Position numbers and translations under genes: made by a program
IMG/VR virus record: IMGVR_UViG_3300046740_000122
Span: 1-25,157 of that record
Length of the DNA stretch: 25,157 nt
Direction: 5' to 3' (one strand)
From: a virus
In this document: piece after piece, positions 1 through 16,391 of the stretch
Layout of the letters: each line of letters opens with the position of its first letter
Numbering within the stretch: the stretch's first letter is position 1
Notes under the pieces: generated by a model
The model's database searches: none
The model's input: only the letters and a program-made list of their open reading frames with translations
Told to the model about the DNA's origin: nothing

Positions 1-39
1 ATATTCAGGCATGTCCTTCCGTCTCGGTCGAATCTTCAT
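1..39 (-). CDS. Partial CDS, N-terminus only, cut by left edge
   Basis: An ATG at 39-37 overlaps the TGA of the preceding gene in an ATGA junction and opens a frame that runs off the left edge after 13 codons (MKIRPRRKDMPEY). The fragment is basic. Nothing can be said about function. It is called a gene only because the 4-base stop/start overlap is the same arrangement used by many gene pairs in this window. Confidence 0.4.
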   Translation of the reverse strand, partial: MKIRPRRKDMPEY

Positions 40-200
40 GCCCTGCGCTCCCACTGCTGCGTCTGCGCGTTGCTGCATGTGGCGTTGCGGATGAACTGCG
101 AGACGCTGACGCCTGCGCGCTTCGCCGCCGCCTGAATCGTGCGCTTCTCGCGGGCGGTCACGATGAACTGAATCACGATGCGGCGCGACGTTTTCGCCAC
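36..200 (-). CDS. Small ribbon-helix-helix type DNA-binding protein
   Basis: This 54-residue protein starts at GTG 200-198, two bases after the stop of the previous reading frame, and ends in an ATGA overlap with the next gene. Residues 6-15 (RRIVIQFIVT) look like the beta strand of a ribbon-helix-helix fold. They are followed by a charged helix (AREKRTIQAAAKRAG) and a second helix (SVSQFIRNATC), the arrangement seen in DUF1778/MobC-like and Arc-type repressors. Members of this fold bind DNA as dimers, the paired strands contacting the major groove. In a phage it could be a regulator of late or neighbouring genes or an antitoxin-like protein; no toxin gene is visible beside it. The assignment rests on sequence pattern only. 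Confidence 0.65.
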   Translation of the reverse strand: MAKTSRRIVIQFIVTAREKRTIQAAAKRAGVSVSQFIRNATCSNAQTQQWERRA

Positions 201-202
201 GG

Positions 203-346
203 TCAGATCCCGAGATTCGCTGACGTGTAGGTCATCGCGCCCTGCGGCGCTGAGGCCATGAGTAGACCGCTTGAGTTGATGGCCGTGTTTTGAAGCTGAT
301 TGACCCAGTTCTGATTCGGCTCTTGATTCGCCACGTTGCGCGCCAT
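203..346 (-). CDS. Small hypothetical protein, possibly the -1 frameshift extension of the upstream gene
   Basis: From ATG 346-344 the frame encodes 47 residues (MARNVANQEPNQNWVNQLQN through YTSANLGI), with an AAGG sequence five bases before the ATG as a possible ribosome site. The frame is open and protein-like well upstream of that ATG (SDPYAQTLAASKGVM), without any ATG, GTG or TTG between the end of the preceding gene and codon 349-347. That preceding gene carries an in-phase CCCTTTC heptamer at 418-424, and a -1 slip there would read straight into this frame and add 71 residues. The segment may therefore be made as an independent short protein, as the C-terminal part of a 136-residue fusion, or both. 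Function unknown. Confidence 0.55.
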   Translation of the reverse strand: MARNVANQEPNQNWVNQLQNTAINSSGLLMASAPQGAMTYTSANLGI

Positions 347-411
347 CACACCCTTCGACGCCGCTAGTGTTTGCGCGTAGGGATCAGATGGCGCTGCCTG
401 TGCAACTGGCG

Positions 412-612
412 TTACGCGAAAGGGCGGACGAGCACCGCGATCCGCGAACGATCCGCATCGACGGTTCCGCCATCGAGCACGGCGGCAATCGCGGCCGATT
501 GGCTGTCCTTCGCGACGACGGCCTTCGGGCCGAATACGAGCCGTTCGCTCTTGCCGTCCTCGGCTTCCTTCTTCGTTGGCGTTTCCAGAATCGCGACTTC
601 GAATAGCGGCAT
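412..612 (-). CDS. Small conserved-type phage protein of unknown function
   Basis: A 66-residue protein (begins MPLFEVAILE, ends VRPFA). The start at ATG 612-610 is supported by AGGAG five bases upstream. It looks like one compact alpha/beta domain: a beta strand at residues 3-9, a charged stretch containing a GPKAVVAKD strand near 28-36, a helix (SQSAAIAAVL) and a final strand (IAVLVRPF). I recognise the general look of small phage proteins of this kind but cannot give a function. The last codons, CGC CCT TTC GCG TAA, contain the slippery pattern C CCT TTC in phase directly before the stop. It follows a hairpin-rich gap of about 60 bases, the likely place for regulation. Confidence 0.75.
   Translation of the reverse strand: MPLFEVAILETPTKKEAEDGKSERLVFGPKAVVAKDSQSAAIAAVLDGGTVDADRSRIAVLVRPFA
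418..424 (-). promoter_or_regulatory. Candidate -1 ribosomal frameshift site CCCTTTC
   Basis: Read on the minus strand, the last codons of the 66-residue gene place C CCT TTC in the X XXY YYZ phase, one sense codon before the TAA. A -1 slip continues as CCC TTT CGC GTA ACG and stays open to the TGA at 205-203. I see only short potential stems immediately downstream (GCG/CGC around the stop, GGC/GCC slightly later), so no strong stimulatory structure is obvious. Arg-Pro-Phe codons can create this heptamer by chance, which lowers confidence. Confidence 0.35.
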
Positions 613-6152: not shown

Positions 6153-7619
6153 CTACTTGGAGTTGTTCTCGATGGCGACCTTCACCGCCTCGAACCACTT
6201 CACCCACACCTCGTGCATCCGTTCGTCTCCGTCGCCCTTGCCGGTCGTGGCTGGCGTGGCCCCCTGCCGCGTCGGCACCGTCACCGGCACCGGCGGCAGC
6301 GTTATCGGCTGTCTCGCCACGTAGGTATAGAGCCCGGTGCCGGTCGCGACGCCGACGACTTGGACATCCACCAGCCCGGTCGCGTGCGGCGGCGTGATGC
6401 AGGTAATCTTCGTGTCGCTCACGATGACCATTTCCGTAGCCAGCACGCCGTCGAACTTGACATTCGTTGCGGAGAGAAACCCGCGGCCTCGGACGGTGAC
6501 GGGCGTGCCGCCGAGAATCGTGCCGGACGCTGGAATGACGAGGATGACGGCGGGCGAGAGAATCGTATACGTGCCGATCAACGCCATAGTGTTGTAGGCG
6601 TCGTAGGCCGTGTCGTTCTCGACGAAGATGAGATTGCCGGACCCGTCCGAGGTCAGCGTGGCAAGTATGTGCGTTCCGACCAGCGCCCCGAGTGTCGCGA
6701 GATCCATGCCGGTCGTTTCGAAGTCCCCACCGTTGAAGCTGAATCCGTTGGGGTCCGTAGCCGGCATCGCGCTCCCGACGAGCGTTGGATCGAACACAGC
6801 GCCGTAGTGGTATTCGACTTGAACAGCCACACCGCCAGCGAATGTATGGTAGTGGAGCGCGTAGGCTGACGACGGCGTGAATCCTGCCGGCAGTCCGGCA
6901 ATGTCGACCGGCGTGACGCTGCCGTCGACGTAGATAAACGCTCCGGCTGTGTCGGCAAACGGAATCTGAATGGTGCCTGTCGCGCCAGGTGTGCCGCTGA
7001 TTTGCGCCGCATCCGGGAACGCGGAGACAAAATCGACCGCCCCCGTCGCCGTGTTCATCTGACCGCAGCGCACCAGCCATGATCCGACGCCGATGTTCTG
7101 ATAGACGACAGTGACGGTGTAATTCGAGACGACAAACCGCGTGCTCGTCGTCGTGTTGTCCTCAAGATTGAGAAAATATTGGAAGCCGAGCGCGAACAGA
7201 TCGGCGCGAGTAGGGCTCGATACTCCCGTGAGCGCCGTGCCATTCCACAAGACGGACGTGGTGCCACTTGAGGCGCCAGCGCCCTGATTGAAATTCGCGC
7301 CAGTGTTCGTGCATCCGGGCTGAAGCGTGCTGCGGGGAGAGGCGCTCCCTCCGACATGCGTGACCGCCCAATCGAAACTGATATTGATGCTCGAAATCAG
7401 AATATTGGCAGGGATCGATCCGTCGTCGTGGAGCGTGCCGAGCACATTCAGCAACGTCGCGTTCGCACCGCCCATGCCCGCGTCTGAGACGACGCCGGTA
7501 TCGCCATTCATCGATGGCGTCCAGGCAGCCGCCGCCGCCGTCCATGCGGGAGGCGACCCGAATCCAGTCGTCGCGCTGGTGAAATCGATAGTGGCGTCCG
7601 TGAAAATCTTCGTCGCCAT
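6153..7619 (-). CDS. Virion appendage protein with a C-terminal IPT/TIG domain
   Basis: A 488-residue, beta-rich protein with many Thr, Ser, Gly and Asn. Residues about 354-434 match an IPT/TIG immunoglobulin-like fold: an opening strand with Pro (ILVIPASGTILGG), then TPVTVRGRGF, the strand NVKFDG, and the ITCITPP-ATGLVDVQVV pattern. TIG domains often occur in surface and phage adhesion proteins. The N-terminal 340 residues read as a beta-structured domain (NILISSINISFDWAV, YTVTVVYQNIG) that I do not recognise. A short charged helix at the C-terminus (HEVWVKWFEAVKVAIENNS) may attach to another tail part. It lies directly downstream of the gp10-type gene (TAG then ATG), the position of the tail needle gene in P22, but it does not look like the helical needle protein. 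Confidence 0.8.
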   Translation of the reverse strand: MATKIFTDATIDFTSATTGFGSPPAWTAAAAAWTPSMNGDTGVVSDAGMGGANATLLNVLGTLHDDGSIPANILISSINISFDWAVTHVGGSASPRSTLQPGCTNTGANFNQGAGASSGTTSVLWNGTALTGVSSPTRADLFALGFQYFLNLEDNTTTSTRFVVSNYTVTVVYQNIGVGSWLVRCGQMNTATGAVDFVSAFPDAAQISGTPGATGTIQIPFADTAGAFIYVDGSVTPVDIAGLPAGFTPSSAYALHYHTFAGGVAVQVEYHYGAVFDPTLVGSAMPATDPNGFSFNGGDFETTGMDLATLGALVGTHILATLTSDGSGNLIFVENDTAYDAYNTMALIGTYTILSPAVILVIPASGTILGGTPVTVRGRGFLSATNVKFDGVLATEMVIVSDTKITCITPPHATGLVDVQVVGVATGTGLYTYVARQPITLPPVPVTVPTRQGATPATTGKGDGDERMHEVWVKWFEAVKVAIENNSK

Positions 7620-15164: not shown

Positions 15165-16391
15165 TTAGCTCCACGCCCGAAGGGCGAAATACGGGAGAAT
15201 CGCGGCGACGCCGCCGATGCTGTCCAGTCGCCGCGGCAACTGGTCCGTCTGGATGTTGTACTGGTCGACGTAGCGCATGGAAATCTTGGCGTCCCGGTCG
15301 TTCTTGCGCGCCGCGACCGCGCCCGCCAGATTCGCCGGCAGATCCGCCATGACGAACGCGAACGCGGCCGGGTTGAAGAGCAGCGACTGCTTGCTCGACT
15401 GCGCCGAGAGCGTCGCGTTGACCGTGCCGCTCGATCCGACAACGGTAATCGTCGCGTTGTTGGCCGGCGAGACGGTGACGGTCTGGAGCGGGCCGCTCGT
15501 GATGATCGGCGGGCTGATGGTCAGCAGCGCGGCGCCAGAACCCGCCAGATCCGCCTGAATCGAGAACGCCTGCGGGTCACCCGTGTCGACGTAGGAGACG
15601 GGATTCACCGCGTTCACGCCCGACAGGTAGAACGTGTCGCCCGCCTTGAACGAGAACGTGCCCCAGCCCTTCGTGAGCAGCGTCGATCCGGTCTGCAGCG
15701 CCCCGTCGACGAGCGGCGTCGAGGTCGTGAACGTGCCGGTCGTGTGCGTCGGCATGTTCGGGTCTTTCAACCACTCGTCGACGCCGAGGGCGCCCTGGTT
15801 GAACTGGCCCGTCTTGAAGTATTCCGAAATCTGCGCCTGCGGATTGAACGCGCCGATGTTCGCGCCGAGCAGCTTGGAGTGCGTTTTCGGGTCAATGACC
15901 GCGCAGAATTCGTCCGGCACGGCGACGTTCGCGAGCTTGGCGAGCCCGTCGAGCCACACCTGATCCGACGACAGCGGCGTGCCCGGCGTGCCGATCTGGA
16001 AATACACCTGCTTGTAGACTTCGACGCCCGCGACGGTGTCCCACTTGTTGGCCATCGCACGGCCCGCCGGCATGGTGTAGCGCTTCTGCACCTCTTCGAC
16101 GACGAGCGACTGATCCGCGCTCGACCACCCGTGCGCGACCTGGAACTGATGGTTGATCGTGATCGGCACGGTCTGGTTGAGGATGGCCTGCTGCTGGAGC
16201 TGCTGGCCTTCGAACACCTGCCAGCGCTGCTCGATGCGCACCTGCGTGGTGTAGCCGATCTGCGCCCCGTCCGGCTTGTTCTCCCACGTGTTGTCCCACG
16301 TCCGGTCGAACTGGCCGATCAACTTGATCGAATTCTTGAACCCGACGGCGCTATCCGTCGTGACCCATTGCGGAGTGATGAAAGTGTTCAC
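15165..16391 (-). CDS. P22-like major coat protein
   Basis: A 408-residue protein (P22 gp5 is 430) belonging to the P22 coat family. The N-terminus MNTFITPQWVTTDSAVGFKN, then FDRTWDNTW, the strand GYTTQVRIEQRWQVFEGQ and QTVPITINHQFQVAHGWSSA, is the pattern of that family's HK97-fold N-arm and E-loop. The middle (LSSDQVWLDGLAKLANVAVP, then CAVIDPKTHSKLLGANIGAF) forms the peripheral domain. A Gly/Thr-rich insertion (about 225-330, containing TFSFKAGDTFYLSG) fits the extra I-domain. The start is GTG 16391-16389 with AGGAG six bases upstream. It builds the icosahedral capsid shell around the scaffold. Confidence 0.9.
   Translation of the reverse strand: MNTFITPQWVTTDSAVGFKNSIKLIGQFDRTWDNTWENKPDGAQIGYTTQVRIEQRWQVFEGQQLQQQAILNQTVPITINHQFQVAHGWSSADQSLVVEEVQKRYTMPAGRAMANKWDTVAGVEVYKQVYFQIGTPGTPLSSDQVWLDGLAKLANVAVPDEFCAVIDPKTHSKLLGANIGAFNPQAQISEYFKTGQFNQGALGVDEWLKDPNMPTHTTGTFTTSTPLVDGALQTGSTLLTKGWGTFSFKAGDTFYLSGVNAVNPVSYVDTGDPQAFSIQADLAGSGAALLTISPPIITSGPLQTVTVSPANNATITVVGSSGTVNATLSAQSSKQSLLFNPAAFAFVMADLPANLAGAVAARKNDRDAKISMRYVDQYNIQTDQLPRRLDSIGGVAAILPYFALRAWS

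Follow-up and report, generated by a model that had tools for sequence, protein, structure and literature searches.

The window analyzed here (the whole stretch of 25,157 nucleotides, positions 1 to 25,157 of the IMG/VR virus record IMGVR_UViG_3300046740_000122) carries, on the minus strand, a short gene, denoted ORF A, and a -1 frame that remains open past the ORF A stop codon. The locus includes the following features, all on the minus strand:

612-412, minus: ORF A, stop codon included, with the 66-aa 0-frame product MPLFEVAILETPTKKEAEDGKSERLVFGPKAVVAKDSQSAAIAAVLDGGTVDADRSRIAVLVRPFA; supported by IMG/VR homologs and an AlphaFold model
440-433, minus: site of the internal Shine-Dalgarno (SD)-like element of the family, weak in the window (GGTG only, 436-433)
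424-418, minus: slippery heptamer C CCT TTC, in the X XXY YYZ phase, separated from the TAA by a single codon
418-203, minus: the -1 frame tail RVTPVAQAAPSDPYAQTLAASKGVMARNVANQEPNQNWVNQLQNTAINSSGLLMASAPQGAMTYTSANLGI, 71 codons plus TGA (205-203); the tails of relatives are under purifying selection
410-396, minus: weak 3-bp GCC/GGC hairpin, read from the sequence; relatives have a stem at the same place
229-212, minus: C-terminal motif YTSANL (family form Y/F-x-A-x-x-L), conserved in tails

The gene for the ORF A protein (MPLFEVAILE...IAVLVRPFA) ends in CGC (426-424) CCT (423-421) TTC (420-418) GCG TAA (414-412). A -1 slip on the heptamer would yield a 136-aa fusion (65 + 71 residues) with the predicted junction sequence ...VLVRPFRVTPVAQ..., and the earliest standard start within the tail, counting ATG, GTG and TTG, is the GTG at 349-347, codon index 23. 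In the window, which is GC-rich, no stop interrupts the -1 frame upstream of the heptamer as far back as a GTG at 637, which gives a 144-aa ORF. An original prediction, made without database searches, had given the coordinates, the phase of the heptamer, the 71-codon tail, the position of its first start and the 136-residue fusion, and all of these held to the base. The same prediction described the parts of the fusion as two otherwise tiny proteins, and here a correction is required: the first is predicted to fold into a compact alpha/beta domain, for which AlphaFold gives a confident strand-helix-strand-helix-strand model (pLDDT 90.9), and the second is a tail that is modeled with low confidence (pLDDT 64) and possesses a conserved end motif. 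The last strand of ORF A runs into the RPF sequence, and the tail would accordingly extend from the C-terminus; judging from the model, the tail is probably flexible. Comparison of the ORF A sequence with Pfam, PHROGs and the PDB sequences, and of its predicted fold with the PDB and BFVD (Foldseek), yielded no significant match. Directly downstream of the tail (36-200, minus strand), the window encodes a 54-aa ribbon-helix-helix-like protein (Pfam NikA-like, E 2.7e-9).

Homologs of ORF A and the conservation of the heptamer

Queried with ORF A, IMG/VR returned 60 loci, with 43-90% identity, and an alignment-based search recovered more distant homologs beyond these. A tblastn search of INPHARED detected one distant relative, the uncultured 735-kb phage LR756501 (two records, approximately 35% identity), and no records beyond these two, whereas PLSDB and the GTDB genome contigs contained no detectable relatives of ORF A. 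Searches seeded with LR756501 and its relatives produced 23 loci, mostly from phages with 26-46% GC (the AT-rich group), two of which (L152 and L153) align over a short segment only. The family ranges from about 27% GC to high GC, and from a podovirus-type phage with a P22 portal to a 735-kb megaphage. In the latter (L127, 3001-3192 and downstream), the same arrangement is observed, with the distant homolog ending in GTG CGC CCT TTT TAA. We found no description of this gene family in the open-access literature that was searched, which is not the whole literature.

The heptamer was counted in 48 dereplicated homologs from the first search and in 75 dereplicated members from both groups. CCCTTTY, in the X XXY YYZ phase and with a nearby stop, is present in 45 of the former and in 67 of the latter; the other members include four with TCCTTTT and one with TTCTTTT, sites that we infer to be capable of re-pairing via G-U wobble. 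U_CC has been mentioned as an X_XX variant at other frameshift sites (PMC5009743).

Conservation of the site extends to the choice of codons. In a codon-column test, the proline codon of the heptamer was found to be CCT in 46 of 46 cases, compared to a CCT share of 9% at the other proline positions of ORF A and 14.5% in the long ORFs of the same loci, a contrast that is unmatched by any other ORF A codon column, and the arginine codon is CGC in 96% versus 54% elsewhere. In the AT-rich group, the genes end in CGC CCT TTT (15) or CGT CCT TTT (3), with TAA or TAG directly after, so that CGC occupies the site in 15 of 18 cases although it accounts for 6% of the arginine codons in this group (26-46% GC). 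Given these disparities (46 of 46 against an expected 9-15% for CCT, and 15 of 18 against 6% for CGC), the heptamer is kept beyond the need for Arg-Pro-Phe, and the slippery site is under selection at the nucleotide level. The membership test of a 0-frame-phase X XXY YYZ heptamer conserved past the amino-acid need is met. Thus, the proposed check of heptamer conservation held, and the counter-argument offered with the original prediction, that an Arg-Pro-Phe ending gives such a heptamer by chance, failed.

The putative stimulatory elements are less uniform. In the GC-rich group, pairing with the anti-SD sequence is most favorable for hexamers that begin 16-12 nt before the heptamer, a sharp peak with a mean duplex energy of approximately -4.9 kcal/mol. 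A 40-nt segment beginning at the fifth base past the heptamer folds better than shuffled sequence in this group, with a mean z of -1.09 versus -0.08 in control windows (p = 6e-7). The modal start of the downstream hairpin is nt 7 after the heptamer, and one member (L033) contains an 11-bp perfect hairpin starting 6 nt past it; L009 likewise has a strong stem. The downstream region of the window itself shows no significant structure (z = +0.7, the MFE structure being a different one), so the initial remark that there was no strong downstream stem held for the window but failed for the family. The AT-rich group has no significant proximal stem and no strong SD, and the membership test that combines an SD about 10 nt upstream with a stem-loop about 5-8 nt downstream is met in the GC-rich group only. 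The signal is conserved at the heptamer and just partly at the stimulators. In the AT-rich loci L128-L151, in which the stop directly follows CCT TTT and no significant stem is found, it is possible that frameshifting is stimulated differently.

The -1 frame, its start codons and natural variants

In nearly all homologs from the first search, AT-rich ones included, the tail frame is open, mostly for 45-115 codons (usually 44-115 over the family as a whole), whereas frames 0 and +1 past the heptamer are usually short. In eight alignable pairs of tails, most substitutions affect the third codon position as read in the -1 frame, and the pooled pN/pS is 0.31; this comparison of sequences shows that the -1 frame is protein-coding and subject to purifying selection. 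The tails are hypervariable, being almost wholly different from one relative to another, and most of them end in the shared Y/F-x-A-x-x-L motif. When this motif was searched for in the other ORFs of the fetched loci, the only significant matches were the same tails, in duplicate loci. Collagen-like G-x-y repeats are present in the tails of two members (L119 and L032) and of the megaphage LR756501. In the megaphage, the tail frame enters GTSGTSGSSG repeats, and several neighboring genes also contain collagen repeats.

The ORF A stop codon is TAG in 33, TAA in 21 and TGA in 21 of the 75 members; because most of the stops are TAG or TAA, a stop-start overlap cannot explain most members of the family. 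Among the 58 members examined in this respect, a start codon overlaps the stop in none of the 38 with TAA or TAG, whereas in 18 of the 20 with TGA, an ATG, GTG or TTG in the -1 frame overlaps the stop or lies beside it. In 62 of 72 members, the -1 frame is interrupted by a stop that lies within the gene, ahead of the heptamer. Between the preceding -1 stop and the tenth codon beyond the heptamer, 29 of the 72 lack any ATG, GTG or TTG, and in 16, a standard start is still absent out to 25 codons. The membership test of a coding -1 frame without its own initiation site is met, with the TGA members remaining ambiguous. It had been stated beforehand that homologs in which the downstream protein has its own start or lies in an unrelated frame would refute the proposal; this check was passed, with the -1 relation seen in almost all homologs and a large fraction of them lacking a usable start for the tail.

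Several members depart from the common arrangement. In L039 (5001-5249), the ORF A core appears to be fused in frame to ATAPRGASTFSATDLMKGA, without RPF and the variable tail, although an assembly error is not excluded. The site in L147 (4001 onward) is a degenerate GGCTTTT, yet the YTSAASLK end motif is kept in the -1 frame. The heptamer is lost in L038, L122 and L123, and two further members (L058 and L060) are truncated. These variants are compatible with a fusion that is kept in most lineages and is sometimes lost or fixed.

A putative programmed frameshift, its alternatives and the possible function

Given the conserved site and its phase, the coding -1 frame, the missing starts in many members and the stimulators of the GC-rich group, it is very likely that the 3' end of ORF A is a programmed -1 ribosomal frameshift site. 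The evidence is comparative, and the slip itself and its efficiency are inferred, in the absence of expression data; at this level, the frameshift interpretation of the original prediction is supported more strongly than the sequence alone allowed. Weighing against it are the weakness of the SD-like element and stem in the window itself, the absence of a significant local stem from the AT-rich group and the lack of a canonical heptamer in four members (L038, L122, L123 and L147). Under the proposed mechanism, the majority of ribosomes would terminate at the TAA and release the compact 66-aa protein, whereas some would slip back by one base on C CCT TTY and continue in the -1 frame, in many relatives with the aid of an internal SD-like sequence about 10 nt upstream and of a stem-loop starting about 6-8 nt downstream. 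The minority 136-aa form would consist of the same domain and a fast-evolving, probably flexible tail ending in the conserved short motif.

The strongest competing explanation is translational coupling, whereby ribosomes terminate at the end of ORF A and then reinitiate in the -1 frame to make the tail as a small protein of its own, via an ATGA or GTGA overlap or a non-standard start. This possibility draws on the fact that 18 of 20 homologs with TGA have a start codon overlapping or adjoining the stop, and on the SD-like sequence near the gene end. However, no such start exists in any of the 38 TAA/TAG members, and the junction region is devoid of a standard start in 29 of 72, so coupled initiation cannot be the general mechanism. 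Furthermore, coupling does not need CGC CCT TTY, yet the TGA members keep it; one member (L039) appears fused in frame; and the SD-like element lies about 18 nt from the overlapping start codon. Such a distance between an SD and a start is too great for normal initiation. We consider coupling very unlikely as an explanation of the family, although coupled initiation could possibly add to tail expression in the TGA members. A chance origin, in which an Arg-Pro-Phe end gives the heptamer, high GC keeps the -1 frame open and the tail is not translated, would be compatible with the occurrence of long spurious ORFs in GC-rich genomes and with the -1 frame of the window being open throughout ORF A. 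This explanation is all but ruled out by the use of CCT (46 of 46 versus 9%), the pN/pS of 0.31, the conserved end motif and the preference for CGC (15 of 18 versus 6%) in AT-rich genomes, which seldom contain long ORFs by chance. Slippage of the RNA polymerase at the C/T run would yield an identical fusion protein, but the run, merely CCC TTT(T), is too short, bacterial transcriptional slippage having been described on runs of 9 A or T (PMC5009743), and the codon phase, the SD-like element and the stem spacing are ribosomal features; we regard this alternative, too, as virtually excluded.

Programmed frameshifting, our preferred reading, is of a known kind, and the layout of a heptamer with an upstream SD and a downstream stem-loop resembles that of E. 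coli dnaX (PMC5009743, PMC3711429), where, however, the heptamer is A AAA AAG rather than C CCT TTY and the slip shortens the protein instead of lengthening it. In carboxysome cso2, frameshifting with a 3' stem likewise produces two protein forms (PMC5009743), but the protein is unrelated and of cellular origin, and its frameshifting is reported to occur without an SD stimulator on the 5' side. Closer in outcome is gene 10 of T7 and T3 (10A/10B), in which ribosomes shift to the -1 frame close to the end of the gene and make a C-terminally extended form, and the extension differs between close relatives (PMC5009743). The differences are that the 66-aa ORF A is not a coat protein (the membership test "major capsid protein" is not met), that the heptamers are dissimilar, with G_GU as X_XX in T7, and that many members of the ORF A family have an SD-like element and a proximal stem.

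The genomic context offers limited guidance as to function. In the window, ORF A is located at the lysis-side end, a P22-like portal is present, and the major head protein is encoded by a separate gene (15165-16391, phrog_283). The structural region also includes a 488-aa ORF with an IPT/TIG domain (6153-7619, minus strand; E 1.5e-12). In other relatives, the gene is upstream of endonuclease VII, terminase and portal genes, and in one AT-rich relative, it is near genes for HU-like and PD-(D/E)XK proteins; clustering of neighbor genes over the loci revealed no single conserved neighbor. Because the neighborhoods are not uniform, all functional guesses are weakened. Our best guess, inferred and marginally more apt to be wrong than right, is that the protein is a late one, associated with the virion or its assembly, a minority of copies carrying the tail; by analogy with the T7/T3 coat-protein extensions, the domain would bind a partner that is itself repeated, and the variable region would be presented by the small number of copies that have a tail. 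A host-directed or other role is conceivable and ranks next. Less probable still, and compatible with frameshifting, is a pair of morphogenesis chaperones like lambda gpG/gpGT, produced at a set ratio and absent from the virion. The logic is the same, in that a -1 frameshift ending a short phage gene yields a rarer extended form in unequal ratio (PMC5009743), and some relatives carry the gene upstream of those for terminase and portal. Against this, the window has a P22-type portal and ORF A is on the lysis side, not between the major tail or tail tube and tape-measure genes as in a long-tailed phage, so that this positional test is not met; in relatives, the gene precedes terminase and portal or occurs in other contexts; the similarity test is not met either, ORF A having no PHROG, Pfam or significant PDB or BFVD match by sequence or fold; and the hypervariable tail is unlike the conserved T domain. 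We therefore consider this alternative unlikely.

The phage frameshifts that we found described are mainly those of tail-assembly chaperones and of coat or tail extensions, from which the ORF A family is separate. Judging from the open-access papers searched, what appears to be new is the gene family and its architecture, in which a constant domain is combined with a replaceable tail and a fixed end motif. A bolder reading, which we put forward only as a possibility, is that this is an undescribed, widespread phage family in which one conserved -1 frameshift joins a nearly freely evolving tail to a constant domain; jointly with this, and no more firmly, the conserved terminal motif of the tail might serve as an anchor, the whole forming a recoding-controlled module for virion display or diversification. 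The slippery site has stayed nearly invariant in genomes that differ greatly in GC content and size, while the tail joined to it has been replaced almost freely. With standard gene-calling programs, the tail will either go unpredicted or be predicted as a distinct or spurious gene. The family presents a ready and testable case of recoding, and its members, some having an SD or a stem and others not, provide naturally occurring variants of the stimulators around the same heptamer.
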